A stretch of DNA of 64,000 nt, taken from the NCBI GenBank assembly GCA_020342235.1, contig CP073212.1, forward strand, positions 2,232,001 through 2,296,000, given 5' to 3'. The DNA comes from Saccharomycopsis phalli (taxonomy: Eukaryota > Ascomycota > Saccharomycetes > Ascoideales > Saccharomycopsidaceae). Positions 3,182 through 63,202 of the stretch are shown here, in pieces. Numbering within the stretch: the first letter of the stretch is position 1; each line of letters begins with the position of its first letter. The position numbers and the translations under genes are program-made. The notes beneath the pieces are model-generated. The model saw only the letters and a program-made list of their open reading frames with translations, was not told the origin of the DNA and ran no database searches.

Positions 3182-3189
3182 TATTTAAG
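3182..3189 (+). promoter_or_regulatory. TATA-like box of arrestin gene 1
   Basis: TATTTAAG lies 43 bp before the ATG, a spacing close to that of most other genes in the window. Confidence 0.4.
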
Positions 3190-3224
3190 GGACGGTATAG
3201 CCGTGCTTTTCTTTTGCATCCACA

Positions 3225-9234: not shown

Positions 9235-9445
9235 ATATTTAGCTATTGTCATTATATTTACTTTTGTAGTTGGTGAGTTCTTGCCTCCAAAAACACAGTG
9301 ATTCAACAAGTATACTTTCACTTGGGAAAATCTCAAGGTATAATTGCTGTTGAAAACTATTATATCTCTTTGGCATCTGTCGGGGCTGAAAGCAATAGAA
9401 TCTGTATTGTTCGTGGCGTAACAACTGACTATTAACTATAGCAGC
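9235..9445 (-). mobile_element. LINE-A 3' tail fragment
   Basis: The reverse complement matches the 3' end of the LINE-A copy at 44.9-45.06 kb: a TTTTCAACAGCAATT block, a stem-loop (9321-9337: CTTGGG, loop AAAAT, CTCAAG on the plus strand), GTTGAATCACTGTG and a run ending in AGCTAAATATA. It is a 5'-truncated, old copy without coding sequence. Confidence 0.7.
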
Positions 9446-22142: not shown

Positions 22143-22275
22143 AAATTAATTATAATGTAATAATAATATTTATTTATGGCTATAGCTATGCTAGGGTCCT
22201 AGGAATATTGATACTACATTGTCTACTACTAATGATGGCTACGCTATGTAGCCAGAAGAAAACCGCTGTGATCAC
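22143..22275 (-). mobile_element. LINE-B 3' tail
   Basis: It starts with a run of 'taataataatatttattta' on the plus strand, then GGCTATAGCTATGCTAGG and a block ending in AGAAGAAAACCGC. These match in order the tails at 29950-30090 (same orientation) and 48350-48485 (opposite orientation). The microsatellite is the 3' terminus, so the element reads on the minus strand. Confidence 0.7.
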
Positions 22276-22545: not shown

Positions 22546-23000
22546 CTCTGACAGAAAACTCAGCAACAGAAAAAAAAAAACTTTGTGCTACTGTTGGTAC
22601 AAGTGCTGCGTAAGGGGAATTGAAGGAACTGTGTGATTTTGTTTATACTATTGGTGATCTTGTTTGCCTCTAATCCGGGGTGCTAGTATGGTGGTCCTCC
22701 TAATGTGCTGTCAAGAGAAGTGATCTACCAGTCCGACACTGACCATTTGAATTCTACAAGTTCATTAACTCCCCACTTTTTCTGAAAAGAAGAGACAGGC
22801 TTTTTATGAGGAGGCTATTGCGTCGTGTATCTATTCTTGGGCTCGGATGGCTGAGAGGCCAGGAAAATGCCAAATCAACAAGATTGATTCTCAGTTATAG
22901 AGATGACAGTCAATCAATAACATTGGAAGTATTAATAATAATATTTATTTCTGTGCTTATCTATTATCGATGTTTTTATCAGCCGGATTAGACATTGTTA
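22546..23000 (-). mobile_element. LINE-B fragment
   Basis: It matches in order the LINE-B copy at 30080-30370: the A-run, GGTGATCTTG, the CCGGGGTGCTAGTATGG block, AACTCCC followed by TCTG-AAAAG, and GAGGAGGCTAT. The open frame at 22806-22991 overlaps it and is not a host gene. Confidence 0.65.
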
Positions 23001-23514
23001 CAAAGTATTCTCAGGTCTTTTTTTATGTATGCCTTACTTTTTGTTGAGGCTGAAAACCACAGGTCACCTATGAGGGAATATCTATCCTATGAAGGGGAGA
23101 TATTTCCGTTTTTCAAAAAAAAAGAAGAAATTCAATTCAATTATCACTACCGTTCCGATTATTTAATTACAAAGGGACAAAACTCATCTAAAATTAAGTA
23201 AATCTCTGACCATAAGTTTGTAACGATATCAAGCTCTATGGAAGACGAATTAGACATCCGCACTTTTATATGAATAATCGACCACGGTCGTGATAGGTGT
23301 TTGTAAGATGATTCTTATATATTTAGTTAATGATCATATCTCCTTTCACAGATGGGATTTAGGCCACTAAGGCCTACTTGTCCTTAAGCTTTGTACGTCG
23401 TATTCCCTAGATACTGGAAGTATTTAGTGATACGCGATGCATGCGCATACCAAGGATTATATTATCTTTAGTACATGACTAAACGACAGTTCAAAACCTC
23501 GAAAACTAAATATT
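23001..23514. other. spacer between LINE fragments
   Basis: Nothing recognised beyond the surrounding element debris. Confidence 0.3.
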
Positions 23515-23960
23515 GTCTTTGGAAGTGCGGTGATTCAACAAATACACTTTAACTCGGGAAAATCCCAAGGCGGCCAGTGAAGAAAACTCTTTGTCAGTAC
23601 TTATAGCGACCCAGGATTAAAAAATCCAATGGGTGCTGTTTTGCTCAAGCTTCATATTATTGTATGGACCCATCTAACAAGTCAGTTTGCTCTTGTCACC
23701 CGTAATTATGGCAGTCGAATCTCATAATCTCATCATGTGGCGGAAGCATCATGGTACATCACGTTCCGGTAAAAATCAATGAGCATCTTTACGTCTTCAT
23801 TGGCTATTTTAGTAATTACCATCTATGTGGCATCAATGAAATTGATAAAATGAGCCAAGGATTGCTTCCGGGGTTGGAAGCATCTCTGATAAAGTGCTTG
23901 GCGACGTCTCTGGTATGTGCTGGACGACGTCTCTGTGCACATATAAGACAACAGTAGCAC
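23515..23960 (-). mobile_element. LINE-A 3' end copy, 5' truncated
   Basis: The reverse complement matches LINE-A 44.75-45.0 kb: the coding end near the GGTGAC block, an AATCCCAAG-like block, the stem-loop at 23553-23569 (CTCGGG, loop AAAAT, CCCAAG) and the GTTGAATCACCG block. The stem pairs through bases different from those of the 45-kb copy. Confidence 0.7.
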
Positions 23961-26725: not shown

Positions 26726-29689
26726 ATGATTCTCTCAGTATTACTACTTATATCCCAGTTGGGACTTTTTGTTGCTGCTGGCCCTGTTCCAACAGCCAGT
26801 TTGATTACCATTGCTGATCCTTCGTTTGAGAAAAGAGATGCCAGTCTCGATCAATTATCGCTGGCCGTCACTTCGTCAGCACTTGCCATGGGTTCTCTGC
26901 TTGCCCTGTTGTTGGCCTTGAGCCTGGCTCCTGCCAGCGTGGGCTTAGATGTGTTTCTTGCATTAGCCTCTGATGACATTTCGGCGGCAGCAACAAGTGC
27001 ATATTTGACTAACACCATTGAACCGAGTGCTGCTTCTGATGCTGCTTCTTTAGCATTGTCGCTGATTATTGTTGGTGACACAAGCGCAGCAGCCACCGTT
27101 ACGGTCAATTCGGAATTTGTCGCTACAGCAGTAGTGTCACCTACTTCAACGGGTGTTTTTGTGGGAGTTGGCGTGGGTTTAGCCCAACAGAAGGTTGACG
27201 TTGGCCTTGGTATCACCTTGACAATTGCAGTTATCACCAGTGTGACTGCTTCGGTTACGAACCTTTATAGTACAACCATCACTGATACTATTACCGAAAC
27301 CATCGACAACACTGCTATAGGATGGGCTACAAACACAGGTAGCTCTGTTGCATCGTCTTCGGCATCATTGCTGGCATCAGAGGTAAGCTCCCTGGTTTCA
27401 GAGAGTTTGGCATCTTCGTTCTCGGGCCTGGTTTCATCATCAGCAGCAGCAAGTGCTTCTTCATTGGCATCCGAGAGTGCTTCTTCCTTAGCCTCAGCAG
27501 CTGCTACCGATTCTGAAGTCACCACTACGGCTACTGTCAGCATTCCTGTTAGCACTGAATCGACATTCACTGATACATTAACCCAAACGGTCATCCAAGA
27601 TGCTACTGCCACAATACTGAGAGTAGGATTCGTCACAGCGCGAGCTCCGTTTAAGAGAGGTTTAGATAAGAGAGCTGCAATTGGGGATGTCATCACTGTC
27701 ACCACTACCACTCCTGTGGTTGTCACTGTGGTTGTTGCCGTTCCGCTCACGTTTCAAAATGACATTGTTGCGACTGCCGTGGCTTCAGCACTGCCAACCG
27801 GGACTCCTACAGGGACTTCTGATACTACTGTGACTCCAACTTCTGACACTACCGCTACTGGAACCTCTGACACTACCGCTACTGGAAGCTCTGATGCTAC
27901 CGCTACTGGAACCTCTGACACTACCGCTACTGGAAGTTCTGACACTACCGCTACTGGAAGCTCTGACACTACCGCTACTGGAAGCTCTGATGCTACCGCT
28001 ACTGGAACCTCTGACACTACCGCTACTGGAAGTTCTGACACTACCGCTACTGGAAGCTCTGACACTACTGCTACTGGAAGTTCTGACACTACCGCTACTG
28101 GAAGCTCTGATGCTACCGCTACTGGAAGCTCTGACACTACCGCTACTGGAAGCTCTGACACTACCGCTACTGGAAGCTCTGACACTACTGCTACTGGAAG
28201 TTCTGACACTACTGCTACTGGAAGTTCTGACACTACCGCTACTGGAAGTTCTGACACTACCGCTACTGGAAGCTCTGACACTACCGTGACTCCAACTTCT
28301 GACACTACTGCTACTGGAAGTTCTGATTCTTCAGGTGCAAGTACTGATGCTACTGCTACTGGAAGCTCTGATACTACCGCAACTCCAACTTCTAATGCTA
28401 CTGGAGGAACTTCTGGCGCTACTGGAAGTACGTCTGATAATACTGCAACAACCACCTCATCCAACGCTTCGACAGAGACAACTTCTGGTTCAGGATCTGG
28501 ATCTAACCCTGGCTCTGGCTCTGGTTCTGGCTCTAACCCTGGATCTGGTTCTGGATCTAACCCTGGCTCTGGATCTGGTTCTAACCCTGGCTCTGGCTCT
28601 GGATCTGGATCTGGATCTAACCCTGGATCTGGATCTGGATCTGGATCTAACCCTGGATCTGGTTCTGGATCTGGATCTAACCCTGGATCTGGATCTGGAT
28701 CTAACCCTGGCTCTGGATCAGGATCTAACCCTGGTTCTGGTTCTGGCTCTGGTTCTGGTTCTGGATCAGGATCTAACCCTGGTTCTGGATCAGGATCTAA
28801 CCCTGGTTCTGGATCTGGATCTGGCTCTGGTTCTAACCCTGGCTCTGGCTCTGGTTCTGGTTCTAACCCTGGTTCTGGATCAGGATCTAACCCTGGTTCT
28901 GGTTCTGGATCTGGCTCTGGTTCTAACCCTGGCTCTGGTTCTGGTTCTAACCCTGGTTCTGGATCAGGATCTAACTCTGGTTCTGGCTCTGGTTCTAACC
29001 CTGGCTCTGGCTCTGGTTCTGGTTCTGGCTCTAACCCTGGTTCAGGATCTGGATCTAACCCTGGCTCTGGCTCTGGATCTGGCTCTGGTTCTAACCCTGG
29101 CTCTGGCTCTGGTTCTGGTTCTAACCCTGGTTCTGGATCAGGATCTAACTCTGGTTCTGGCTCTGGTTCTAACCCTGGCTCTGGCTCTGGTTCTGGTTCT
29201 GGCTCTAACCCTGGTTCAGGATCTGGATCTAACCCTGGCTCTGGCTCTGGATCTGGCTCTGGTTCTAACCCTGGCTCTGGCTCTGGTTCTGGTTCTAACC
29301 CTGGTTCTGGATCAGGATCTAACTCTGGTTCTGGCTCTGGTTCTAACCCTGGCTCTGGCTCTGGTTCTGGTTCTGGCTCTAACCCTGGTTCAGGATCTGG
29401 ATCTAACCCTGGCTCTGGCTCTGGATCTGGCTCTGGTTCTAACCCTGGCTCTGGCTCTGGTTCTGGTTCTAACCCTGGTTCTGGATCAGGATCTAACCCT
29501 GGCTCTGGTTCTGGATCAGGGTCTAACTCGGGATCTAGTTCCCAATCGCCTCAGGCTTCTACTTTATCTTCCTCTGTTCAGTTGGCAAGTTCTCTGGGCA
29601 CTGCAGCAATTCAGCAGGCCAATGGTGCCAAGAAGATACCTATTCCATTTCAAGATATAATTGCATTGGTTGTCAACCTTGCATTATAA
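26726..29689 (+). CDS. secreted repeat-rich wall protein P2
   Basis: A 987-residue paralogue of P1. It has a signal peptide (1-19), KR at 36-37, the Ala/Ser-rich domain to about 309, then KR at 310-311 and 315-316 (spacer GLD) and the Val/Thr-rich segment [18 protein letters not shown]. The middle differs from the other members: about twenty GSSDTTAT-type octapeptides (DNA 27830-28330), then about 340 residues of GSGSGSNP (28480-29530) containing a 174-bp higher-order repeat. The two-cysteine motif found in P1, P3, P4 and P5 is absent. The tail [20 protein letters not shown] is shared. Gly/Ser/Asn/Pro stretches of this kind are flexible spacers in wall proteins. The surface location is inferred and the function unknown. 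Confidence 0.85.
27830..28330 (+). repeat. 24-bp coding repeat in P2
   Basis: About twenty copies of an octapeptide unit GSSDTTAT or GTSDTTAT, with few synonymous differences between copies. Confidence 0.9.
28480..29530 (+). repeat. Gly-Ser-Asn-Pro coding repeat in P2
   Basis: Runs of (GS)n with SNP inserted at intervals of 8-12 residues. The variant CTAACT (Asn-Ser) recurs at 28971, 29145 and 29319, exactly 174 bp apart, marking a 58-residue higher-order unit present about three times. Confidence 0.9.
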
Positions 29690-37971: not shown

Positions 37972-40900
37972 ATGATTCTTTCTGCTTTACTACTTCTGTG
38001 CCAATTTGCATTTATTCTTGCTGCGGGTCCAGTTCTAACAGCCAAGACCTTGATGTCAATTGTTAATACTTCTCTTGAGAAAAGAGATGATTGGCTATCA
38101 GAATACACAACAATGGCTGAATTATCAGCTCTGTTTCTCGCCACACAGGCAGCAATAAATGCTGCCTTGGCTGGAATTACTCCCACTATTGTGTTTTCCG
38201 AGTATATCCAAAGTGCATCAGATGATGCCTCTCTGCAAGCAACAAATTCATATTTGTCTGACACCATTGAATCAAGTGCAGTCACTGATGCCGCATCTTT
38301 AGCATTATCTCTGATTAATGGTAAAGGAACTGTAGATGTCACCGTTCCACTCAGTTCTGAATATGTTGCCTCAGCTACAGTGATACCACCTGCCACGGTA
38401 ACTGTACTTATCGGTGTTGGTCTGGCTGTGGCTGAGGTAGATATCGAGTTTGAAGATGGTGGAACTTTGCCCATTAGAGGTACTGCGATTGTGAGTATCA
38501 CAACTTCAACAGTTCTTACCACAACAGTTTCTGTTACTGTCACTGGAACTGTTGAAAATACTGCTACAGGATGGGCTACCAATACTGCTACAGAGCTTGC
38601 TGTATCATCTGGATTGATGTCGGCCTCAGCACTTAGCTCTCTGGTAGCAGAAAGTTTGGCATCTTCTTTCTCAGACCAGGTTTCATCTTCTGCTGCCGAA
38701 AGTGCTTCCTCATTAGCATCCGAAAGTGCTTCTTCCTTAGCAACAGCAGCTGCTACAGATTCTGAAGTCACCACTACAGCTACAGCTACAGTTTCAACAA
38801 GTACTGAATCAACGTACACCAATACTGTGACTCAAACGGTTTTGCAAGATGCTACTGCCACAATACTGAGACTAGGATTTTTAATGGAAGCAAACCCATT
38901 CAAGAGAGACTTGGGTAAGAGAGACAATATTGGGGATGTCATTACAGTCACAACCGCTACTCCTGTTATTATTGCTGTACCTGTCACTATTCCGTTTACA
39001 TTTGACAATTTCGTTGTTGCAAGTGCCGTGGCTTCAGCACTGCCAACAACAACCACTACTTCAGAGAATGATACTACAACTACTACTTCGGAGGATGATA
39101 CTACAACTACTACTTCGGAGGATGATACTACAACTACTACTTCGGAGGATGATACTACAACTACTACTTCGGAGGATGATACTACAACTACTTCTGATGA
39201 TCCTGCAACAACCACGTCTGATGATCCTGCAACAACTACGTCTGATGATCCTGCAACAACTACTTCAAATGATCCTGCAACAACTACGTCTAATGATCCT
39301 GCAACAACTACGTCTAATGACACTGCAACAACTACTTCTAATGACACTGCAACAACTACGTCTAATGACACTGCAACAACTACATCAGGTGATACTGCAA
39401 CAACTACTTCTAATGACACTGCAACAACTACTTCAAATGATCCTGCAACAACCACGTCTGATGATCCTGCAACAACTACTTCAAATGATCCTGCAACAAC
39501 TACGTCTGATGATCCTGCAACAACTACGTCTGATGACACTGCAGCAACTACTTCTAATGACACTGCAACAACTACGTCTGATGATCCTGCAACAACTACG
39601 TCTAATGATCCTGCAACAACTACGTCTAATGATCCTGCAACAACTACGTCTAATGACACTGCAACAACTACTTCTAATGACACTGCAACAACTACTTCTA
39701 ATGACACTGCAACAACTACTTCAAATGATCCTGCAACAACCACGTCTGATGATCCTGCAACAACTACGTCTAATGATCCTGCAACAACTACGTCTAATGA
39801 TCCTGCAACAACTACATCAGGTGATACTGCAACAACTACTTCTAATGACACTGCAACAACTACTTCAAATGATCCTGCAACAACCACGTCTGATGATCCT
39901 GCAACAACTACGTCTGATGATCCTGCAACAACTACTTCTAATGACACTGCAACAACTACTTCAAATGACACTGCAACAACTACTTCTAATAACACTGCAA
40001 CAACTACGTCTGATGATCCTGCAACAACTACGTCTAATGATCCTGCAACAACTACATCAGGTGATACTGCAACAACTACTTCTAATGACACTGCAACAAC
40101 TACTTCTAATAACACTGCAACAACTACGTCTGATGATCCTGGAACAACTACGTCTGATGACACTGCAGCAACTACTTCTAATGACACTGCAACAACTACG
40201 TCTGATGATCCTGCAACAACTACGTCTAATGATCCTGCAACAACTACGTCTAATGACACTGCAACAACTACTTCTAATGACACTGCAACAACTACGTCTA
40301 ATGACACTGCAACAACTACATCAGGTGATACTGCAACAACTACTTCTAATGACACTGCAACAACTACTTCAAATGATCCTGCAACAACCACGTCTGATGA
40401 TCCTGCAACAACTACGTCTAATGATCCTGCAACAACTACGTCTAATGATCCTGCAACAACTACATCAGGTGATACTGCAACAACTACTTCTAATGACACT
40501 GCAACAACTACTTCAAATGATCCTGCAACAACCACGTCTGATGATCCTGCAACAACTACGTCTGATGATCCTGCAACAACTACTTCTAATGACACTGCAA
40601 CAACTACTTCAAATGATCCTGCAACAACTACGTCTGATGATCCTGCAACAACTACGTCTGATGACACTGCAGCAACTACTTCTAATGACACTGCAACAAC
40701 TACGTCTGATGATCCTGCAACAACTACGTCTAATGATCCTGCAACAACTACGTCTAATGATCCTGCAACAACTACATCAGGTGATACTGCAACAACTACT
40801 TCTAATGACACTGCAACAACTACTTCAAATGATCCTGCAACAACCACGTCTGATGATCCTGCAACAACTACGTCTGATGATCCTGCAACAACTACTTCTA

Positions 40901-41742
40901 ATGACACTGCAACAACTACGTCTGATGATCCTGCAACAACTACTTCTAATGACACTGGAACAACTACGTCTGATGATCCTGCAACAACTACTTCAAATGA
41001 CACTGGAACAACTACATCTGATGATCCCGCAACAACGAAAACTCTTGCTCCTTTTCGGAATTCTACAACTACTACTGGTTCCTCTTCACAAAAAGTTACT
41101 TCATCGCAAACAACTATTGTGATTACTTCTGACTGTGATAGTCAACCATGTCGTGTTGTGACAGTTACTTCTGTTGTTCCATCGGTACCAAAACATGGTA
41201 CTCCAACTGATGGGCTAGGTGATGGCTCGAACTCTGGGTCTGGATCAAATTCTGGCTCTGGTTCTGGTGCTGATGCTGGTTCTGTATCTAACTCACGTTC
41301 AGGTTCAGATTCTGACCCTAAGCCTGGTTCAGGTTCAGGCATTGGTTCTAACATTGGTTTCAACTCCGGTTCAGGTTCAGGTTCGGGTTCAGACTCTAAC
41401 TCTGGTTCCAGCTCGGTGTCTAACACTGGTTCTTACACTGGTTCTGGCTTAGTTTCAAATCCTGTTTCGAGCACTGGTTCTGATTCTAACTCAAACTCCG
41501 GTTCTAACTCAGGTTCTAACTCAAACTCCGATTCTAACTCAAGTTCTATTTCTAACTCCGGTTCAGTCTCAGAATCTAGCTCTCCAAGCCGGCAAGGAGT
41601 AAAGTCTTCTACTACTTTATCCATATCTGTTGAATCACCAAGTTTGCCTGTTCTTGAATCCATTCAGCAATCGAACGCTGCCAAGAAAATACCCAATCCT
41701 TTTGGAGATTTGATTGCGTTGGTTATCAACCTTTCTTTATAA
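37972..41742 (+). CDS. secreted repeat-rich wall protein P3
   Basis: A 1256-residue member, the largest of the cluster. It has a signal peptide (1-19), KR at 37-38, the Ala/Ser-rich domain to 310, then KR at 311-312 and 316-317 (spacer DLG) and a Val/Thr/Ile-rich segment. Five TTTSEDDT units follow, then close to 80 octapeptides of the type [16 protein letters not shown] or TTTSGDTA (39187-41030). The C-terminal part has the [16 protein letters not shown] motif, a Ser/Gly/Asn region and the tail [20 protein letters not shown]. Thr-rich repeats of this kind are heavily O-mannosylated in yeasts and form stiff stalks. Surface display is inferred. Codons 310-360 are nearly identical in DNA to P4. 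Confidence 0.85.
39187..41030 (+). repeat. 24-bp coding repeat in P3, about 77 units
   Basis: The octapeptide variants (SNDTA, SNDPA, SDDPA, SGDTA, SDDTAA) recur in the same multi-unit order several times, so blocks of several units were amplified together. Because the unit is 24 bp, long open frames also appear in two other frames and are artefacts. Confidence 0.92.
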
Positions 41743-42172: not shown

Positions 42173-42230
42173 TTGAGGTTGAACACTACGAGTAAGTCAC
42201 TGATACCCTCCTGACATATCGAATAGAATC

Positions 42231-44936
42231 AAGCCAAAAACGGTGCATAACTACTCTAAAACGGACTGGTTAAAGGTACGTGCAATACTAGACAAGCGTC
42301 GGTTCGCAAGCGCCATCCACACAGAGGATGAATTAAACAGGGTATCCGCCAAGTTAACTCAGACTCTAAGGCAACTAATTGACAGAAACACTCCGATGAA
42401 ACTAGTAAATAGCCGTTCAAAAAGGTGGTTCACTCAAGAAGTCAGAGACGCGTATCGAACTGTCACTAGCCTCGCAATGGACGATCCAGAACGAAGCAAT
42501 GCTCAAAATGCCTTTCAGGAAACTGTTCAAAAAGCCAAATCCAAGTGCTGGAATGATTTCCTACTCAAGTTGGATCACACCACCATCTGGACTGCTTACC
42601 GATACACAAACCCAGCAAAGCGCCATAGAATGATGAAACTGTACGAGGAACAACACGAAGCCTTCGGCAAAACCTTTTACCACAGATTACCGTGGGTGAG
42701 AGCCTCACGCCAGCTTCATTCCAACCGCACAACACTCATTGGGACGACATCGAACCAATAACGAAGGAGGAAATATTCAACACCATCAGATACCTAAAGC
42801 TCAAAAAAGCCCCAGGTCCTGACCAACTTACCGTTGGTCAAATCAGGGAGCTTTGGCAGGGGAAAGCCTTCTCTGACCAGTTGGAATTGATCTACAACGC
42901 GTGCCTCAAACTTGGAGCATTCCCCACACAGTGGAAAACTAGCATCACGGTAGTAATCCCGAAACCAGGAAAAGCCAATTATGAGACACCAAAATCATTT
43001 CAACCAATCAGCTTACTCAATATACTTGGGAAAATCTTCGAGTCAATCATGACCCAAAGATTGGTCGCCAGGGGGCAGGAGGTTTGGGGGGGCAGGAGGT
43101 TTGGCCGAATGGAAAACACCTCATGCCTTATGGAGGGCGCATCATGAGGTAGTTACCGGGTTCGAGCCCCACCAAACCGCCCCAATACTCAAGAAAGTCT
43201 CCAGAAAGAGCACACTACGCCTCAGAAGGGCAATACAAGGAAGTCTCGCAAACGAGCAATGAACGACCCCGACGAGTCGTGCGCCCATCGTCACGAGATT
43301 CAGCGGCCGGATAGCGCCGGCATTTAGCCGAAGGATGGCCAGGCTTCTCGCATAACCAATAGCCAGTCACGTTAAACCACTAACAACACTGCTCCCATTG
43401 AAGTTTTTCAGCCCATATAACCGTTTAGGGTTATAAAGGGTTTTCTTCAATAGAATGCTGCCTCAGGATGTTCCTGAGTGAAAATATATCTGTCGAATCA
43501 CCGTGTTTCCGGAGACAATATATAGCTAAATACAGAACTAAATATACTTAACTTAACTTTGGTCGCCAAAATCCAACTCCCATCTTACCAATTTGGGGGG
43601 CGCAAAGGTTACTGCGCAACGGATGCGGTTACAACCTTAGTAAATAATCTCAAGGTCCATGCCCAGACTCACCTCATGGACAACCAGAAAATGCCACTAA
43701 ACCACTCCAATCACTCTGGAGCAGTCCTAGTTGACATTGAAGGTGCCTTCAACAACATGAGCCACCCGATCCTACTACAAAAGATGCAGGCCGTCGGAGC
43801 TCCACCCGAGATAATCAATTGGACTAGCAACTTCCTTCAAAACCGAAGCACTCAGCTAAAAATTGATGGACAGTTATCAGACCAGCACCTCCCCGTTACG
43901 TTCGGAGTCCCACAAGGCTCTCCAATCTCTCCAATCCTCTTCATGATCTACACCCACGACCTCTACAACCGGCTTTAGCGGAAAGGGGCAGTGGCCCTAG
44001 GATTCATTGACGACATTACAATTGTCAAAACGGGATCCCGTGGCGATATTGAGCATACCCTTCAGCGATGCTTACAGGAATGCCATCAATGGGGTCAAGA
44101 GAATTTCACAAGCTTTGACTATGGCCCGAAACTACAATACATACGATTCTTCCCGAATCGAGGACGGTTACCGAACTGTGAATCCAGCCTCCAGCTTCCG
44201 GACGGAGGACGAAAGGAGGAAACCAACGAGGTCAAGTTATTAGGCATTACCCTTGATTCAAGACTCAGCTTCAGGAGCCATCTAAAACAAACATTGTCCA
44301 AGATGCGCCGTACTGCTGAACAAATAAGGTACTTAAGCCGAATGACACGAGGAACCACGGGACGCACCACGATAATATTGTTCAAAACGTGTGCAGTCCC
44401 AATCATATCGTATGGACTCGAGGTGTTCTATAACAGCATGACAAAAACCCAATGGGGTCAGGTCAGTGTGATATTCAACTCAATCCTACGGCTGGCTCTA
44501 GGCCTCCTCAGACCCACATCCACCCCGATCATCTATATCGAAAGTGGTATTCCACCACCAACGATCCTACTCAAGTCCTTGGCAATAATGAAATCCATGA
44601 GATGGTTCATGAATACATGACCCAAAGTGCAAACGATGCAGAATTCACTCCCGCTCCATCATACATAACCTCCAATGTCCAGAGCTCTTAGAAGCTCGAA
44701 TTCTATCACGCATTGATGACATACTAGATTCCACCCATGGCATACACAATACGCTTGGAAAAGTGTTTGCGAATCGGTTCATGAGTTTAGTTTTACCAGA
44801 ACATGATGAGATTCAGCGGTCACATTCGACAACAAGGGTGACCAGGCTTCTTACGCAATCAATACAAGCACTACCTATCAACAATATGACTGCTCTCATT
44901 GAAGCTTTTAATCCCAAGCAACTAAATGAGGGTTGA
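42231..44936 (+). pseudogene. LINE-A reverse transcriptase ORF
   Basis: Motifs in order: a tryptophan-containing linker (KTDWLKVRAILDKRRF), KKAPGPDQL near 42805, a VVIPKPGK block near 42950, SLLNILGKIFES near 43009, FGGRKGYCATDAVTTL near 43590, DIEGAFNNM near 43736, GVPQGSPISPILFMIY near 43905, F-I-D-D at 44003-44014, LLGITLDSRLSF near 44240 and a zinc knuckle CKRC-x(n)-H-x(3)-C at 44628-44678. Defects seen: a frameshift near 42690, the SINE insertion at 43071-43558, one in-frame TAG at 43976 and a frameshift near 44610. The frame before and after the SINE is the same once one copy of the duplication is discounted. The few lesions suggest a fairly young copy. FIDD replaces the usual YADD or FADD. 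Confidence 0.88.
43071..43558 (+). mobile_element. tRNA-derived SINE inside LINE-A
   Basis: A 488-bp insertion flanked by the 10-bp duplication TTGGTCGCCA (43061-43070 and 43559-43568). The head is tRNA-like, with box A TGGCCGAATGG at 43102-43112, box B GGTTCGAGCCC at 43159-43169, and an acceptor-like GGAGGTT pairing with AACCGCC (one mismatch). A ~125-bp body follows. The last ~250 bp (from about 43298) resembles the 3' end of LINE-A, including the stem-loop CTCAGG-ATGTT-CCTGAG at 43462-43478 and GGAGACAATATATAGCTAAA-TACA. The tail is 'acttaacttaactt'. Pol III would transcribe it, and LINE-A RT would mobilise it through the shared tail. That mechanism is inference from established LINE and SINE pairs such as eel UnaL2 and UnaSINE1. 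Confidence 0.88.
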
Positions 44937-44965
44937 CAAAGGGTTTTCTTCAACAGCAATGCTGC

Positions 44966-44982
44966 CTCAGGATGTTCCTGAG
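44966..44982 (+). promoter_or_regulatory. 3' stem-loop of LINE-A
   Basis: CTCAGG pairs with CCTGAG around the loop ATGTT, 47 nt after the ORF stop end at 44934-44936 begins its 3' non-coding region. Equivalent hairpins with changed but still pairing stems occur in the copies at 9321, 23553, 43462 (SINE) and 48873. It is the likely recognition element of the reverse transcriptase. Confidence 0.65.
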
Positions 44983-45063
44983 TGAAACTATATCTGTTGA
45001 ATAACCGTAATGCCGGAGACAATATATAGCTAAATACAAATATAAATATTATTATTATTATTA

Positions 45064-46233
45064 TAACCGTTGTGGAGCCTTCTTGGAATGAATCACGATG
45101 CCGTGCATCAGGTGATTAATATTGCAATCTTCAGTTAGTTGATTTCATCGTAAACCTCCTTCACCAACACTATAAACCTTATATATCACATTTCTACGCA
45201 TGTATTACCTAACGCTTATTAATAACGATTAAATATGCTTACTATCGCAGGGTAAAGAAATGCGGAAGAACCCCTTTAGAATTGTAAAATGGCTGTTAAA
45301 TGCATTTCTATGCATAGAAGCCATTTGATGGCTCGGATAATGATAACGTACATGGGAATATATTAATACAACAGATCAGCCTATTTTCATACTATTCAAC
45401 ATTGTATCTGGTTGAATTTTTGATGCTTGGCAATTTCTTAAGCAGTATATTTCCTTCGATCCGGTATCTTTTCAAGTAATGCCATATATGTAAATATTAG
45501 AGTCCATACAACTGCAGATGGGGTAATATTCTTATTTTCATTTGATTCCGCTTTAAGAAATTGAATTCACACTTGGATGCATATGAAGTTTATGACAAGG
45601 GAATAATGGATATTAAATTTATTAAAAGGAAAGAGCGTTTGACATGTGAAGATTTTCCGATACTGGATCTGTATCTGGTTATTTGTGAATATTAAGAATG
45701 CGATTTTACTATAACAGAACCTAGTTCATGTGGAAGTAGAACAAGACAATAGAAACTAGAATTTGATATAGGCATGGAAAATAGAGATTACACTGGCTGT
45801 GGTTCTGTTGACCAGTTCCTTGCCTACTAGTAGCAGTCACATTGGGGCACTAGCTAGGACTATTTTAAATTGAAATATTTCTTTTATGGCTCGTAAAAAT
45901 TTTTAGAGTTTAAAAGTAAATATGAAAATTACTTTGTGTACCATGTATTTGAAATTAATTACAGCCAAAGTACGGAATACGCAATCTCAAATTATCAAAG
46001 AAGCAAGATGCCACTATAAGAAAGATATTCATTCTGATTTCATCACTCATTCATTACTATTTTAGTATCCTTGCGATGTCCTGTTAGAGTGTTATAACGG
46101 CATGCAAGGGTGAATTCTTGCATTATGACACAGATGCTTTTCCGGCATTAATAGAAGAGAGTTCGTTTTCGAGAATGTCTATACCTGAATACTATTTAAA
46201 ACTACTAGTCGGGAGATTCTTGTTTAACCAAAT
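45064..46233 (+). promoter_or_regulatory. duplicated upstream region of P4
   Basis: It aligns with the regions before P2 and P3: TATAAACCTTATATATCAC (45171), TATTACCTAACGCTTATTAA (45204), ACTATCGCAGGGTAAAG (45240), ATGCATAGAAG (45313), TATTTTAGTATCCTTGCGATG (46059) and GACACAGATGC (46128). LINE-A lies immediately upstream of this duplicated block. Confidence 0.6.
46193..46200 (+). promoter_or_regulatory. TATA-like box of P4
   Basis: TATTTAAA starts 41 bp before the P4 ATG. Confidence 0.45.
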
Positions 46234-48312
46234 ATGATTCTTTCAGCTTTACTGCTATTGTACCAATTGGCTTTTACTGTTGCCTCTAGACCAGATTCAT
46301 CACCAAATAACTTGATTTCAATTATCGATACTTCTTTTGGCAAAAGAAATGCTTTAGCGAAATATTCATCCTCTGTCACATCTTCAGCACTTTCTATGGC
46401 TTCCGAAGCTGCACTGAGCCTTGCCTTAGCTCAAACAACTACCGTCAGCATGAATTTTTCCAAGTTTACTCAGAGTGCTTTAGACGATGCGTCTCTGGAA
46501 GTAACAAATGTATACTTGTCCGATACCCTTGAAGCAAGCGCAGCATCTGATGCCGCATCTTCAGCACTATCACTGGTTGTTGCTGGTGAAACAACTGCGG
46601 AAGCCACCGTTGCACTCAGTACTGATTATGTTGCCTCAGCTACAGTGACACCTGCTTCTGCACGTGCATTTATCGGTATTGGTGTTGGTATAGCTGAGAT
46701 AGATCTTGATTTTGGTAACGGCGTCATTTCCACCATTGCATGTACTACAAGTGTGACACTCACTGTTGTAACAGATATTAGCTCTACTATTTCTGCTACT
46801 GTTACTGAAACTGTTGAAAATACTGCTACAGGATGGGCTACTAATACTGCCAGTTCAATGGCTTCATCTTTTGGAACTTTACTGGCCTCCGAGCTTAGCT
46901 CTCTAGTCGCAGAAAGTTTGGCATCCACTTTCTCAGACCAGGTTTCATCTTCTGCTGCCGAAAGTGCTTCCTCATTAGCATCCGAAAGTGCTTCTTCCTT
47001 AGCAACAGCAGCTGCTACAGATTCTGAAGTCACCACTACAGCTACAGCTACAGTTTCAACTAGTACTGAATCAACGTACACCAATACTGTGACTCAAACG
47101 GTTATGCAAGATGCTACTGCCACAATACTGAGACTAGGATTTTTAATGGAAGCAAACCCATTCAAGAGAGACTTGGGTAAGAGAGATGATATTGGTGATG
47201 TTATTACTGTCACAACTACTACACCGGTTGTTGTTACCGTACCTGTCACTATTCCGTTTACATTTGACAATTTCGTTGTTGCAAGTGCCGTGGCTTCAGC
47301 ACTGCCAACAATAACTACTCCGGAGGACAATACTAAAACTACCACTCCGGAGGATGATACTACAACTACTACGCCAGAGGATAATACTACAACTACTACT
47401 CCAGAGAATGATACCACAACTACTACTCCAGAGGATGATACTAAACCTACTACTCCGGAGGACAATACTACAACCACTACTCCGGTGTTCAATAGTACAA
47501 CTACTACTCCGGAGTACAACACTACAACTACTACTCCAGAGGATGATACTACAACTACTCCTCCGGAGGATAATACTACAACTACTGCTCCAGAGGACGG
47601 TACTACAACTACTGCTCCGGAGTACAATACTACAACTACTACTCCGGAGGATGATACTAAAACTATCACCTCAGAAGATGACACTACAACTACTTCAAAT
47701 GATCCTGGATTGACAGTTCTGTCCAAATTTCAGAATTCTACAACTTCTATTTGTTTTTCTTCACAAACAGCCATTTCTTTGCAAACAATCATTGTGACAA
47801 CTTCTGACTGCGATACTCGACCATGTCATGTTGTGACAGTTACATCTGTTATTCCATGGGTACCAGAACATGGTACTCCAACTGATGTGCCAGGTGATGG
47901 CTCGAACTCTGGGTCTGGGTCTAATTCAGATGCTGGCTCTGGTTCCAATACAGGTTCCAACTCCGGTACTGGTTCTAGCACTGGCTCTGGTGCTGATTCT
48001 AACTCCGGTTCTAACACTGGGCCTGGATCTAACTCTGGGTCTAGATCTAACTCTGAGACTATTTCTAATTCTGGATTAAACACTGACTCTGGTTCAGAAT
48101 CTAACTCTTATTCAAACACATGTTCTAACTCTAGTTCTGACTCTAGATCCAACTCTCCAACCTCACAAGCACCTGATATTTCTACTTTATCTTCGTCAGT
48201 TCAGTTGCAAAGTTCTCAAGTCATTGCGTCATTTCAACATGCCAATACTGCAAAGAAAATACCTATTCCATTTCAAGACTTAATTATATTTGCCATCAAC
48301 CTTGCATTATGA
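46234..48312 (+). CDS. secreted repeat-rich wall protein P4
   Basis: A 692-residue paralogue closest to P3. It has a signal peptide (1-18), KR at 37-38, the Ala/Ser-rich domain, KR at 311-312 and 316-317 (spacer DLG) and the segment [21 protein letters not shown] short Thr-rich region of about fourteen nonapeptides of the PEDDTTTTT type follows (47316-47700). Then come the motif C-D-T-R-P-C-H-VVTVTSVIP, a Ser/Gly/Asn region and the tail [20 protein letters not shown]. Potential N-glycosylation sites (NSTTT, NTTTT) sit in the repeats. A surface protein is inferred. Confidence 0.85.
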   Translation: MILSALLLLYQLAFTVASRPDSSPNNLISIIDTSFGKRNALAKYSSSVTSSALSMASEAALSLALAQTTTVSMNFSKFTQSALDDASLEVTNVYLSDTLEASAASDAASSALSLVVAGETTAEATVALSTDYVASATVTPASARAFIGIGVGIAEIDLDFGNGVISTIACTTSVTLTVVTDISSTISATVTETVENTATGWATNTASSMASSFGTLLASELSSLVAESLASTFSDQVSSSAAESASSLASESASSLATAAATDSEVTTTATATVSTSTESTYTNTVTQTVMQDATATILRLGFLMEANPFKRDLGKRDDIGDVITVTTTTPVVVTVPVTIPFTFDNFVVASAVASALPTITTPEDNTKTTTPEDDTTTTTPEDNTTTTTPENDTTTTTPEDDTKPTTPEDNTTTTTPVFNSTTTTPEYNTTTTTPEDDTTTTPPEDNTTTTAPEDGTTTTAPEYNTTTTTPEDDTKTITSEDDTTTTSNDPGLTVLSKFQNSTTSICFSSQTAISLQTIIVTTSDCDTRPCHVVTVTSVIPWVPEHGTPTDVPGDGSNSGSGSNSDAGSGSNTGSNSGTGSSTGSGADSNSGSNTGPGSNSGSRSNSETISNSGLNTDSGSESNSYSNTCSNSSSDSRSNSPTSQAPDISTLSSSVQLQSSQVIASFQHANTAKKIPIPFQDLIIFAINLAL
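47316..47700 (+). repeat. 27-bp coding repeat in P4
   Basis: About fourteen imperfect nonapeptide units based on TPEDDTTTT, more diverged from each other than the units of P3, so probably older or less homogenised. Confidence 0.85.
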
Positions 48313-48349: not shown

Positions 48350-48486
48350 TTCATCTGTCGCAGAGTTTTCTTTCGACGACTACATAGCAGCACCGTCCTT
48401 AGTCTTCGACGGCGAAGTATAAATCTCCTATAGGAGCCTAGTATAGCTATAGCCTTAAATAAATATTATTATTATTATTATTATGC
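48350..48486 (+). mobile_element. LINE-B 3' tail
   Basis: It carries GTCGCAGAGTTTTCTTTCGAC, the CACCGTCCTTAGTC block, TAGTATAGCTATAGCC and an (ATT)n end, the reverse complement of the tails at 22143 and 29945. It lies about 40 bp after the P4 stop codon, on the opposite strand to the other two. Confidence 0.75.
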
Positions 48487-48825: not shown

Positions 48826-49345
48826 ATTATTATTGTCTCTCGATACACAATGATTCGACGAATATATTCTCATTCAGGAAAATCCTGAGGCAGCATTACT
48901 GTTGAAGAAAACCCTCTGTCAACCCTCACTTGGTTGCTTGGGATTAAAAACTTCAATGGGAGCAGTCATATTGTTGGTACTCAGTGCTTGTATTGACTGT
49001 GTAAGAAGCCTGGTCACCCTTGTTGTCCAATGCGACTGCTGAATCTCATTATGTGTTGGATGAGTCTTGCTCCAACACGTTCTGGTAAAACTTAATGAGT
49101 TTGTGGACTGATTTTTGGTCGGCAAACACTTTTCCAAGTGTATTGTGTATGCCATGAGTGGAATCTAGTATTTCATCAATGTCCGATATATTCCAGCTAA
49201 GAGCTCTGGATGAAGATCATTTATAATGGTTATCATATATAATGGAGGGAGATTATGTTCCACATCTTTTGCATTTCGGGTCTTTATTGCCAAATAGATT
49301 GATGAACAAGCCTGTAGGAGAAATGGTTCCTTGATATCATCAGTT
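48826..49345 (-). mobile_element. LINE-A 3' portion, minus strand
   Basis: The reverse complement runs from just before the zinc knuckle (DPKCKRCGT) through the C-terminus (RVTRLLTQSIQALSTNNMTA near 48970-49030) to the stem-loop (48873-48889) and the microsatellite end. It is adjacent to an RT segment in the opposite orientation. Confidence 0.75.
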
Positions 49346-52800: not shown

Positions 52801-54291
52801 ACTCATTAGAGAACTAGTGAACAGCATTAGCTACTAATGTGTATTCAGGGTGACTCCCTTGCATCGGCTCTCAAAATAGATCCGATGAAAATAGTTACTA
52901 TAACCATTAGCATGATTTTTGTGCAGCTGAAATTCTCAAGGGGTCTCATTTCTAGCTAGTGGGCCAATATTAGATTTGAGCAATTGAGGCTGTAGACAAC
53001 TGGCAAACCCCATTATTACATAGCGAGTGAACAAACAAGAGATAACATTAAAAAAAAATAGATTTATTGGTTCATCTGCCTAAGAAATAGCCTATATAAT
53101 AGACACAATGGCTATTTCCTATGCCGTGACTTTACAAGCCCATGTGGTGGGTTGTCTGTAAGTTTCATGCTGGATTTTTGTATACATGCGCAGAAAGTGA
53201 TTTACGTGCAGGGTAAGATAGGTGTGAGATCTTATATACCCGATATCAAACCATCAGTCGGAATATTATACAGATGAAATACACTAGCAATCTTGGGTTG
53301 CAAGTAATCTATCCATAGAGCCCATTAATTGGCATCGAAGACAAGGTACATATATAAATTGTATAGTACTGCCAAGCATGTCAGTTAAATTCGCTAGTGC
53401 ATGGTGTATAATTTCTGCAAGTCGTATCTCCATCATGCACCTGTCCAAATATTGCTACAAATCTCTCATGGGGCAAGTATGATCAAGATAACATATGCAT
53501 ACATTCTGCTAATCAAATGCCAAGAATAAAGACATTGCCAGCTACATTAGTGTCAATCAGCTCTCACCCGAAGGAGAATATATTCAGCAGGCGGCAGGTA
53601 CTAATACCATATGTGAATACCAAATGATGAACAAATGTTGTCAGTTTCGGAAGCTTGTAGACAGACAGAATGACGGGATAGGCAATTGCAGTTGCACAAA
53701 TAGAGTATATTTTCGACCAAAAGAAGAAGGTGGTTTCAATGGAGTATTTTTGGAATGGCGTGAAAATTGGGTGTATGCGGTGTTGTACCGAATCAGTTGC
53801 CAACCGAAAATATGGGGTAGCTGAATATCATGAAGGGGGAGATTCCACAGTAATAAAATGTTTGTGTAGTTTGTAAAAATACGAATATGTACAATTGCTA
53901 TATGCTGTTATTCAATCTACTAGAACCCCAATGAAAAAATATCATTCTACCAAGAAGCTTGGCCATATGGTTTGGTCACGTGGAATCCCTCCGGGGAGTT
54001 GGCTGGTGTTTACCATTTTGTCTTTACTGCATCACATAGTTGGTGAACACTAAATACAACCACTAACAATTTTTCGCACATGATGGAGACTATCTTCAAC
54101 CATGTAGAATGCGAAAAGTTCATGGCTAAATGAATGCTTTCCTTCCGATGTCGATGAAGGTGGAGCAAAGTCGCCTGATGATCATCATTAGTGCCTTGAT
54201 GCTCTGCATGTATTCGATATGCAGTGCGGTTCGCGCATGGGGATACATCCCAATATCATCGACACTCCTTCATTTCCAACATCAGAAAATG
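49816..54291. other. 4.5 kb without accepted genes
   Basis: Mostly AT-rich DNA with probable element debris. A weak reverse-transcriptase-like stretch lies near 50938-51060 (plus-strand reading contains SKLFRCIFNDDSMKIINWY). TTTA microsatellite lies near 51955-51978 and an ATT run near 51745. Open frames at 50546-50761, 51606-51824, 52373-52594, 53564-53803 and 53624-53824 have no recognisable features. Confidence 0.35.
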
Positions 54292-54301
54292 TATATATAA
54301 A
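54292..54301 (+). promoter_or_regulatory. TATA box of P5
   Basis: TATATATAAA starts 44 bp before the ATG at 54336, the same spacing as P2. Confidence 0.6.
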
Positions 54302-54335
54302 CAGTCTTTCTTCACAGAAAATATTCATCACTACA

Positions 54336-55670
54336 ATGCTCTATCCAGTCGCTTTAGTATTCTCTGCCTTGGCTCTCAATTCCGCCGCTGCCGGTGTCAC
54401 AAGTCCTTACTTGAACACCACATCCACCACTACTGTCTCCCAACTGGACACTTCTTCTGACGACGCTAGTCTGACCACCTCGTCATCTATCTCCACTACC
54501 TTTAACCCAGCTACCTTCACTGATGCCACGGAGCTTGCTTCCGCTTCCGCTTCTGTGATAGCTTCTGCTGCTGCTTCCGCTTCCGCTTCCTCAAGTGCTT
54601 CTCAATTAGCTAGTGACGCTTTCAATGCTGGGGTTGCTCACACTACTGGTGTCTTCCTTGTTAAGAGAGCTGGTGTTTCTGCTGCTACTGCAACTGCCAT
54701 TGCTATTGCTGACAGAACCGTGGTTGCCACATTAAACAACACCGTCGGTGTTGCTGCTGCTACCGCTACTGCTACTGCTACCGCTGTTGTCGGTGAGGAC
54801 AGCAATGACAACAGCACTACTACCTCTTCTGACGACAACTCCAGTATTACCACCCCTATTGACACCACCACCACTACCTCTACCGTCACCGACGACAACA
54901 CCAGTGACGACAACACCACTAGTGACAACAGTGATGCTTCTAGTGAATTCACTACTAGCACTACTACCGAGACTTTCAGCTCAGAAACCGTTGTTGTGAC
55001 CATTACCGATTGTGGAACAAGAGACTGCAGTGTTGTGACCATCACTACTGTTGTTCCTTGCACCACTCAACCAGAGCCAATTACCATCACTGCTCCATGT
55101 ACCACCACTGAGGATGAATCTAACCCAGAACATACTCCAGAGTCTAACCCAGAGTCTAACCCAGAGTCTAACCCAGAGTCCAAGCCAGAATCTAACCCAG
55201 AATCTAACCCAGAGTCTAACCCAGAGTCTAACCCAGAGTCTAACCCAGGTTCGAAGCCAGAATCTAACCCAGAGTCTAACCCAGAATCTAACCCAGAATC
55301 TAACCCAGGTTCGAAGCCAGAATCTAACCCAGAATCTAACCCAGAGTCTAACCCAGAGTCTAACCCAGAATCTAACCCAGAATCTAACCCAGGTTCTAAC
55401 CCAGAATCTAACCCAGAGTCTAACCCAGGTTCGAAGCCAGAATCTAACCCAGAATCTAACCCAGAATCTAACCCAGAATCTAACCCAGGTTCTAACCCAG
55501 AGTCCAACCCAGGCTCTAACCCAGGTTCTAACCCAGCTCCTCTGTCTATGACCAGTAAGATTACTGGAACTGAGTCTGCGTCACCAGCTGTTCAGACTGC
55601 CAATGGTGCTAGAAGAGTTCAAATTCCTCTTTACAATTTGTATTCCTTCATCAACACCTTTCTTCTTTAG
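54336..55670 (+). CDS. secreted repeat-rich wall protein P5
   Basis: A 444-residue, reduced member of the cluster. The ATG at 54336 is chosen because a typical signal peptide (MLYPVALVFSALALNSAAAG) begins there and a TATA box lies 44 bp upstream. The frame upstream is open but carries no signal peptide. A Ser/Ala-rich region (residues 66-95) precedes KR at 110-111. An Ala/Thr/Val-rich segment and Asp/Ser/Thr-rich stretch follow, then the motif C-G-T-R-D-C-S-VVTITTVVPC. About 35 tandem NPES or NPGS tetrapeptides come next (55115-55540), and the tail is NGARRVQIPLYNLYSFINTF. It shares the Cys motif and tail design with P1, P3 and P4 but lacks the long N-domain and double KR site. Codon choice (gctgct, actact, accacc) looks more biased, suggesting higher expression. 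A surface protein is inferred. Confidence 0.82.
   Translation: MLYPVALVFSALALNSAAAGVTSPYLNTTSTTTVSQLDTSSDDASLTTSSSISTTFNPATFTDATELASASASVIASAAASASASSSASQLASDAFNAGVAHTTGVFLVKRAGVSAATATAIAIADRTVVATLNNTVGVAAATATATATAVVGEDSNDNSTTTSSDDNSSITTPIDTTTTTSTVTDDNTSDDNTTSDNSDASSEFTTSTTTETFSSETVVVTITDCGTRDCSVVTITTVVPCTTQPEPITITAPCTTTEDESNPEHTPESNPESNPESNPESKPESNPESNPESNPESNPESNPGSKPESNPESNPESNPESNPGSKPESNPESNPESNPESNPESNPESNPGSNPESNPESNPGSKPESNPESNPESNPESNPGSNPESNPGSNPGSNPAPLSMTSKITGTESASPAVQTANGARRVQIPLYNLYSFINTFLL
55115..55540 (+). repeat. 12-bp coding repeat in P5
   Basis: Tandem tetrapeptides SNPE, with SNPG and SKPE variants. GSKPES recurs about every 60-120 bp, indicating block duplication. Confidence 0.92.
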
Positions 55671-61132: not shown

Positions 61133-63202
61133 GTGCTAGCATTAAAGTATAAGTTGACTCATGCACCGGTGTTACAAATTTTCAATCCAGATTTAACGTG
61201 CAGGGTAACAGCAGATGCATCCAAAGAGCATATCGGAGCAGTACTGGAACAATACGATCAGAATGGAAAAACGGTGGGAGTCGTGGCGTATATGTCCAAG
61301 GCTTTACAAGGTGCTCAATTGAATTACGACATCAGAGAGAAAGAATTACTTGCTATTATTGAAGCTTTTAAACAATGGCGCCATTATCTTACTATGCCGT
61401 TTGAAACCTTTTCAGATCACCACTCTCTCACATATCTCAATTCAGCAAAGAATGAAAACAACCAACGTTTATTGAGATGGCAGCATTTCCTAGCAGATTT
61501 TAATTTTGTGATCCGATATAAACCGGGGTATAATAAAGTTGCTGATGCCCTTAGTCGAGACACAGCCGCTAATGCAGTGGCCAATTTAGAAGAACTACAA
61601 AATGATGAAGACGTCCAGCCAAATGAATTAGAGCAAGGACCTGAAGAAGAGCGAATCATTCCTCCAAATTTAAAGAATACGGAAGCAGAACGCTTGCCTA
61701 AGCTTACCAAAGAGGATTACTTGGCAGACAATTATTTCAAAGAAATTTATCAAACTCTCGATGGGGACATAGAATGCCCTAGAGAATTAAGGAGTCTTGT
61801 CAAGAAATTTAAGATCGCATCATTTGAAAATATCAGATTATTAGTATTCAGAACGTCTGCCAATGCGGTAGTCAGATTATGCATTCCACATGGTTCAATT
61901 AGACATAGAATAATGGAGACTGTACACACGTCCCTTGGAGGTCTACACATGGGAATAACCAAAATGGTATATCAAATTCAAGACTTACATCTTTATTGGC
62001 CCAATATGTGGCAAAGTATACGACGTTTTGTGACGCACTGCAGTACATGCGCACGAATAAAAGCATCCAACCAATATACGGCAGGAATATTAAGACCTTT
62101 GGAAGTTCCTCAAGCAAGATGGTCGGATTTGTCCATGGATTTTATAACGGGCATTCCTATGGCAGGAAAAGAGAAATATGATTCTATTATGGTCGTGGTC
62201 GACCGTCTCACAAAGCGGGCGACGTTTATTGCAAATCATAAAAAAGATACCGCTGCGGACATCGCGAAACTTTTCTATCAAAGAGTAGTTTGTGAGCATG
62301 GATTACCGGTGACCATAGTGTCAGATAGAGACAAAATATTTACAAGTGACTTTTGGACAGCACTTACCCAATTGATGGGAATAAAACAACAGTTATCCAC
62401 GGTGGCCCATCCTCAAACAGACGGTCAAACGGAAAGAATGAATAGAGAATTAATAAAACTCATGACAATTCATAATTTGGATAAAGATAATGAATGGGAT
62501 GAAGTTCTTCCTACCATACAGTTTGCATATAATAGTCAGTTCCAAGAAAGCATAAAAACGACACCCTTCTTTGCAGATGTTGGATATCATCCTAGATATT
62601 GGACCGTAATGACTGAGTTGGAAACGTTAGCAATTATGACTAGTATTCCTAAACTAAGTGCCATCCAATTTATAAGACGACAAACTAAGATTATTGCGGA
62701 TATACAAATTCAAATGGCTGAAGCTCAAGCTACACAAAGCATTCAATTTAATAAGAAGCGTACTCATATGACTTATGAGTTAGGAGAACTAGTACTCATT
62801 CACAGAAGAATCTTAAAAGATTATGAAAGGAAGCCAAAGAAATTTGTGCCTATATTTTATGGCCCGTTTCCTATTACTAAAACGTCAGAGTTCAATGTGT
62901 ATCGAGTACGAATTACTCCCCGAAAAACTATTAAAGTTAATATCAAAAATATGAGAAAGTACTATCCTATGGAGTTAGCTGAAATAGGTAGCAAGTTTGA
63001 TAAAGAAAGAAACGATATTATCTCAATTCTAGAAACAGGAGATTCCAGTGTGGTCGTACTTTATAAAAACTACTCGGAACCCGTGACTATACCAAAAGAA
63101 TGGATATACTCCCTATCTCAAGATCATCAACAACGATTAATGAGGGAACTACAAAATGAGGAAGAGAGTTTTCCTGATCTTGGTCGAGACGCCCAAAAAT
63201 AA
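61133..63202 (+). pseudogene. pol region of the Ty3/Gypsy element: RNase H and integrase
   Basis: The RNase H part (CRVTADASKEHIGAVLEQ, YDIREKELLAIIEA, FSDHHSLTYL, ADALSRD) is followed by the integrase zinc-binding H-H-C-C region near 61915-62055, the catalytic core (DLSMDFITGIP, VSDRDKIFTSDFW, AHPQTDGQTERMNREL) and a C-terminal GPF module (FYGPFPITK). No chromodomain was recognised. Part of a broken but young element. Confidence 0.9.

Follow-up and report, generated by a model that had tools for sequence, protein, structure and literature searches.

The 488-bp segment at positions 43071-43558 of the window (the whole 64-kb stretch of DNA analysed here) is very probably a copy of a short non-coding SINE, which a resident two-ORF LINE moves by way of a 3' tail common to both elements. 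With a confidence slightly short of even, we further propose that the two form a currently mobile pair in a budding yeast in which the SINE replaced the (TTA)n end of the LINE by CTTA units and then by CTTAA or CTTAT units, the hairpin of the tail being kept. If this proposal is correct, the LINE enzyme would pick its template by the hairpin, the terminal repeat would be free to change by slippage, and intermediates of the tail change would be preserved within one 14-Mb genome. From the features described below we infer that the SINE is probably transcribed and mobilised in trans, and it may descend from a tRNA.

A short element inserted in a LINE and its dispersed copies

The segment is bounded on both sides by TTGGTCGCCA, which forms a 10-nt target-site duplication (TSD) at 43061-43070 and 43559-43568 (both on the + strand). 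When joined, the flanks (80 nt) align without gaps to a full-length LINE copy on contig C1 with 78/80 positions identical, so the segment was inserted into a LINE. The uninterrupted LINE copy has a single TTGGTCGCCA site, with one base different. These observations bear out the original prediction of a duplication-bounded segment that splits a LINE, named LINE-A. The first part of LINE-A, 42206-43070 (+), corresponds to LINE positions 2169-3034 and is 95% identical by BLAST; the second, 43559-45064 (+), corresponds by BLAST and alignment to LINE positions 3025-4092 (96%) and then 4588-5072 (84%), with about 495 bp of the LINE missing and a (TTA)n tail at its end. The interrupted LINE is not otherwise intact, as it begins only at LINE position ~2169, lacks these ~495 bp and carries a TGA in its ORF2 frame.

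Comparison of 34 full-ended copies places the start of the element proper at about 43088, and the first 17 nt of the segment (43071-43087, +) are a partial tandem duplication of the SINE's own 5' end, giving the window copy two 5' heads. The start at 43071 given in the original prediction therefore holds for the duplication-bounded segment but not for the element. A partial tandem copy of the first 17-25 nt is found in three SINE copies (the window copy, L012 and L063), and such tandem starts perhaps arose when the reverse transcriptase jumped between templates close to the 5' end of the RNA. The SINE proper spans ~471 nt (43088-43558, +), from GGGG(G)CAGGAGG to a tail of CTTAA repeats, and in the window copy no ORF of at least 150 aa lies wholly inside it.

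A scan of the 14.15-Mb assembly with a SINE-specific query (43096-43300) found 39 places on 8 contigs, with 39/39 candidates scored. Thirty-two are identical over the 205 nt, three match at 98-100% (one of them only from query base 18) and four at 69-93%. These counts are lower bounds, since the old copies L068 and L069 are absent from the 205-nt scan and were found with the full segment, which gave at least 43 matches across the genome (best 40 of 318 candidates scored). The set of 34 full-ended copies was drawn from 40 SINE loci, leaving out L064, which has no 5' end, and L066-L070, which have no exact anchor motif. A 445-nt core is the same in 30 of the 34; L011, L015 and L063 have 1-2 substitutions in the core, and the core of L065 is 437 nt long. 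Such near-identity indicates a very young family, which also has older members: counting substitutions only, these differ from the young sequence by 6.7% (L066), 12.4% (L070), 13.7% (L067), 17.7% (L069) and 17.9% (L068), while in BLAST identity with gaps counted L070 is lowest, at 76%.

Exact TSDs of 10-18 nt flank 31 of the 34 full-ended copies, two others have 7-8 nt and L007 has none. In mixed-flank controls 192/200 pairings gave no repeat reaching 6 nt, and the maximum was 8 nt. Direct repeats are also present at two 5'-truncated copies, L064 (13 nt) and L066 (12 nt), and in the old copies L067, L068 and L069 a TSD was looked for and not found. Flanks of 45-60 nt showed no sharing between copies beyond the TSDs. 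The prediction that there would be other copies with independent duplications is therefore borne out. An origin of the copies other than retroposition, be it DNA duplication, gene conversion or a DNA transposon, is scarcely credible. The 30/34 identical cores are also what recent copying of DNA would produce, but the flanks differ, 31/34 copies have a TSD of their own, and reverse transcription is indicated by the 5' truncations and by terminal repeats that vary.

Confinement of the other copies to one position in the LINE had been named as an outcome that would count against the prediction, and the copies are not so confined. When the 200-bp flanks of 36 SINE loci were compared with the LINE, only two, the window copy (L001) and L014, had LINE sequence around them; the two differ in place and are oppositely oriented relative to the LINE. 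L006 gave one weak flank match (89 columns at 72%). With L014 lying in a LINE copy the other way round, the nesting in LINE-A looks like a chance landing and incidental. SINE insertion is mostly outside long frames: the empty sites fall within frames of at least 150 codons in 5/28 cases (the copies with a TSD of 10 nt or more among loci L001-L030), against 198/495 control positions in the same flanks. The empty sites of L021, L025 and L029 lie within frames of 349-516 codons, where genes are possibly interrupted.

Pol III motifs and tRNA likeness of the head

Pattern searches place a box A-like motif, TGGCCGAATGG, at 43102-43112 (+) and a box B-like motif, GGTTCGAGCCC, at 43159-43169 (+). The pattern TGGCNNANNGG-N20-50-GGTTCGANNCC occurs once in the 64-kb window, at 43102-43169, and in 0/100 shuffles, in agreement with the boxes originally predicted; across the genome, a box A/B pattern gave 36 matches, 34 of them SINE copies. 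By these matches the SINE carries candidate Pol III promoter motifs A and B. Box A lies 13-14 nt from the 5' end of the element; on a tRNA-type gene, Pol III begins at roughly that distance from box A. In the life cycle we propose, transcription by Pol III would begin at the GGGG end, with box A 13-14 nt downstream, and yield an RNA of ~470 nt. A TTTTT inside the element (43404-43408, +), a possible weak Pol III terminator, could bring such transcripts to an early end.

The head appears tRNA-like, although the resemblance is only weak. Local alignment with 18 distinct predicted tRNAs from the fetched loci shows that 18 nt at 43095-43112 (+) share 16 positions with the 5' end of tRNA-Leu(TAA), a score reached by 3/300 shuffled heads. 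The best local score of the head, against the same 18, is with tRNA-Arg(TCT), and 0/300 shuffles scored as high. Neither ARAGORN nor Rfam reports a tRNA in the head, and covariance searches in and around the head returned no tRNA and nothing credible. The predicted fold of the head is a long rod (-42.4 kcal/mol, z = -2.98). Hence the tRNA head of the original prediction is suggested by the 16/18 match but not recognised by these programs.

A 3' part held in common with a two-ORF LINE

The full-length LINE copy on C1 is ~5.08 kb long, is flanked by the TSD TTAGAGTCCAAG and begins AAAAAAAATGAGTTC directly after it, with a very short leader followed by two ORFs. ORF1 has no Pfam match at E 0.01; ORF2 matches Exo_endo_phos_2 and RVT_1 above cut-off (endonuclease and reverse transcriptase). 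The ORF2 frame is broken in this copy, and at least five other copies have a 1124-aa frame without a stop (best 68 of 107 candidates scored), with 100% identity over query residues 1-634. The family also includes many 5'-truncated copies. With an endonuclease and reverse transcriptase, TSDs and 5' truncation, the partner has the sequence features of an APE-type non-LTR retrotransposon. LINE-A matches the full-length copy at 95-96% identity in two long segments and belongs to the same family as the probable partner, as had been proposed; LINE-A is itself damaged, and it is likely that the young copies with open frames are the partner and LINE-A a damaged relative. Matches of ~264 bp, considered as a second SINE, were rejected as such because they are 5'-truncated LINE copies. 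Several LINE copies are found close to contig ends, at distances of up to ~20 kb, for example C5:654-1134, C1:5416-7326, C4:7861-10118 and C8:15627-16370.

The 3' part of the SINE, 43331-43545 (+) by BLAST (from 43336 for the full-length LINE copy), is 82% identical to the 3' end of that copy over 216 columns, so that ~18% of aligned columns differ with gaps counted. Against the 3' end of LINE-A it is 78% identical over 218 columns, which agrees with the resemblance originally noted and extends it to the LINE family. Besides this part, BLAST of the SINE against the whole LINE gave only matches of 12 and 13 nt (E 0.29 and 3.5), and in the SINE-specific middle (43181-43330, +) BLAST and alignment show a 12-nt stretch as the sole LINE match. 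By this comparison the head and middle are not LINE-derived. It is accordingly highly improbable that the segment is an internally deleted LINE, that is, a non-autonomous derivative made by Pol II and never by Pol III. The LINE likeness of the last ~215 bp would fit such a derivative, but beyond them there are only the two short BLAST matches, boxes A and B stand at tRNA-like spacing 13-14 nt from the 5' end, and the LINE starts AAAAAAAATGAGTTC and not GGGGCAGG in the one full-length LINE 5' end that was read. The GGGG head as the LINE's own 5' end was a candidate dropped on reading that copy.

Both tails contain a 7-bp hairpin, CTCAGGA-TGT-TCCTGAG, at 43462-43478 (+) in the window copy. In an alignment of 33 diverse rows, made up of 32 of the 48 distinct sequences together with L097 (the 16 left out being mostly near-duplicates, and some partial or deleted), 81.4% of the hairpin cells are paired. 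Cells with a double change number 8, against 3.3 in shuffles (2/500 as high); pairs with a double change number 3 against 2.6, with no excess. Covariation in a three-helix model of the tail was not above shuffles, and our claim is therefore limited to the 7-bp hairpin, for which the covariation gives moderate support at the sequence level. Old diverged relatives of the LINE/SINE tail are seen in the window at 9251-9354 (-), 23506-23574 (-) and 48831-49188 (-), and in the first two, compensated hairpin changes can be seen by eye.

The terminal repeats of the two elements differ. The LINE ends in (TTA)n, and young SINE copies end in CTTA, CTTAT or CTTAA units, the window copy having a CTTAA-type repeat at 43547-43558 (+). 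Among 33 SINE copies with a duplication the terminal units are CTTAA in 14, CTTAT in 5 and CTTA in 5, with one unit or less in 9. Two exact pattern searches, from which variants could escape, located CTTA tails: the first, behind the shared motif, gave 27 matches at 21 places and the second 8 matches at 7 places. All are SINE copies, and all the matches carry ACAGAA[CA]TAAATATA. None of 40 fetched LINE 3' ends has the CTTA repeat.

The older SINE copies vary in their ends. L068 and L069 end in AAAAATAAATATTATTA, of the LINE's TTA type; L067 and L070 end in AGAAATA(A/G)ATATACTTACTTAC, with CTTAC repeats; L066 ends in AGAATTAAATATACTTAC, and the young copies in AGAACTAAATATACTTAA. These ends are most simply read as a stepwise departure of the SINE lineage from the LINE type of terminal repeat, with the hairpin kept. 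Alternatively, the lineage of L068 and L069 may have regained a LINE-type end. In the tree these two copies group together with a support of 0.987, hence their TTA ends count as one lineage; the other nodes among the old copies are weaker, and the order of the tail changes does not follow from the tree.

The difference in terminal repeats also bears on whether the SINE is moved by another LINE, either a second family or an unseen one with CTTA tails. The second family is ~53% identical to the proposed partner in the ORF2 stretch searched and has at least four copies with a 1152-aa open frame without stops (best 68 of 107 candidates scored). Its three fetched downstream stretches have one common 3' sequence followed by a TTA- or TAA-type end, and by eye the CTCAGGA hairpin is absent from all three. 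Movement by such a LINE is favoured by the young SINE ends, unlike the (TTA)n of the proposed partner, and by the open 1152-aa copies. Against it, the three second-family tails fetched are without the hairpin, exact patterns find CTTA tails at SINE copies only and at 0/40 LINE 3' ends, and L068 and L069 carry the LINE-type end, which we counted in favour of the SINE-LINE pairing. We consider movement by a different LINE very unlikely, and the second family in particular is disfavoured as the partner because its tail lacks the shared sequence. Ends of the type AATATTATTATTA stand behind different sequences at 11033-11067 (+), 22158-22201 (-), 22930-22964 (-) and 48431-48474 (+), the last of which resembles by eye the tail of the second LINE family.

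The insertion sites are consistent with mobilisation of the SINE by proteins of the (TTA)n LINE. T is found at position -2 in 19/31 SINE sites and 9/16 LINE sites. TC precedes the nick in 9/31 and 5/16 respectively, where ~6% is expected; as the longest-match rule pushes the -1 base away from the last base of the tail, T at -2 is the cleaner signal. TSD lengths are 10-18 nt for the SINE and 11-24 nt for the LINE. The 16 LINE sites were hand-picked, 15 from the 40 fetched loci, where a repeat abuts LINE sequence, plus L038; the loci left out had no repeat within them, low-complexity repeats or repeats inside LINE sequence. The common nick bias, similar TSD lengths and 5' truncations are thus indirect indications of mobilisation in trans. 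In the mechanism we envisage, the ORF2 protein of the LINE would bind the hairpin-bearing 3' tail of the SINE RNA, as the shared tail suggests, the LINE endonuclease would nick the target preferentially where T stands at -2 and C at -1, and the short terminal repeat would be where target-primed reverse transcription begins. Its expected products would be those seen in the sequence, namely TSDs of 10-18 nt, some 5' truncations, variable terminal repeats and dispersed identical copies.

Known SINE-LINE pairs and other features of the window

The comparisons that follow draw on the available parts of the cited papers. SINE-LINE pairs are known from animals, plants and filamentous fungi (PMC3747384, PMC5063351). 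The fungal pairs include Mg-SINE with MGR583 in Magnaporthe and SINE2-1_BG with Tad1-24_BG in Blumeria (PMC3747384), and AfuSINE2-1a of Aspergillus fumigatus with I-1_AF, a LINE of the Tad clade (PMC5063351). Like the SINE described here, AfuSINE2-1a has a tRNA-related head, short TSDs, a 3' part like the 3' UTR of a resident LINE and terminal short repeats, there ACT; its host, however, is a filamentous ascomycete (PMC5063351). Another AfuSINE2 adjoins a LINE whose reverse transcriptase is possibly inactivated (PMC5063351), whereas some ORF2 frames are open here and 32 SINE copies are identical over the scanned 205 nt. Mg-SINE and SINE2-1_BG are likewise tRNA SINEs with a LINE-derived tail (PMC3747384), and Mg-SINE, at 472 bp and ca. 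100 copies (PMC5063351), is close in length to the 471 nt found here. Their hosts, in contrast, are filamentous plant pathogens, and the likeness is one of description and not of sequence.

Recognition of a 3' stem-loop by ORF2 is described for the eel SINE/UnaL2 pair (PMC3747384) and for zebrafish ZfL2-1/ZfL2-2 (PMC4176376), where terminal repeats are also tied to template slippage (PMC3747384, PMC4176376). Those are vertebrate LINEs of the L2 clade with experimental proof, whereas for the yeast SINE such recognition is what we infer from the shared tail. Terminal repeats are connected with slippage in the available text of PMC3747384, where a study on change in the SINE tails of Aedes is among the references. 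SINE and LINE of a pair often have the same terminal repeat, but varied repeats are listed in that paper, and therefore we did not treat this likeness as defining for a pair.

Two-ORF LINEs of budding yeasts include Ylli of Yarrowia lipolytica (PMC5014426) and Zorro of Candida albicans (PMC7175516). Zorro3 similarly has a very short 5' UTR (PMC7175516). Ylli (PMC5014426) and Zorro3 (PMC7175516) end in poly(A), whereas the LINE here ends in (TTA)n; they too are likened by description and not by sequence. Ylli has no identified TSD (PMC5014426), unlike the LINE here. The available parts of these papers describe no partner SINE for Ylli (PMC5014426) or Zorro (PMC7175516); the section on Ylli speculates on parallels with SINEs and describes none there (PMC5014426), and the term SINE does not occur in the main text, as available, of PMC7175516 and PMC5499181. 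A repeat table for a Taphrinomycotina yeast counts LINE and SINE together (PMC7912804, in the part available). In the part of the open-licence literature that was covered, we found no SINE described for Saccharomycotina. A source among the Saccharomycotina is likely from the complex I 51-kDa protein, whose closest PDB entry is 6gcs NUBM, of Yarrowia lipolytica.

Judged from its sequence, the element is truly a SINE, young and with a tail derived from a LINE, and in the papers covered we found no earlier report from this group of organisms. In a compact yeast genome, the 32 SINE copies identical over the scanned 205 nt and the LINE copies with open frames would make an unusually simple system for studying how a LINE enzyme chooses a SINE RNA, and the differing tail repeats could separate the hairpin from the repeat as the recognised part.

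Two further features of the window were observed. Long Ser/Thr-rich predicted secreted proteins, with ends similar by eye, form a family encoded at 37972-41742, 19306-21939, 26726-29689, 46234-48312 and 54219-55670, and the gene at 37972-41742 contains a 24-bp repeat with 78 register matches. A frame at 61133-63202 (+) resembles by eye the RNase H and integrase region of a Ty3/gypsy-type element.
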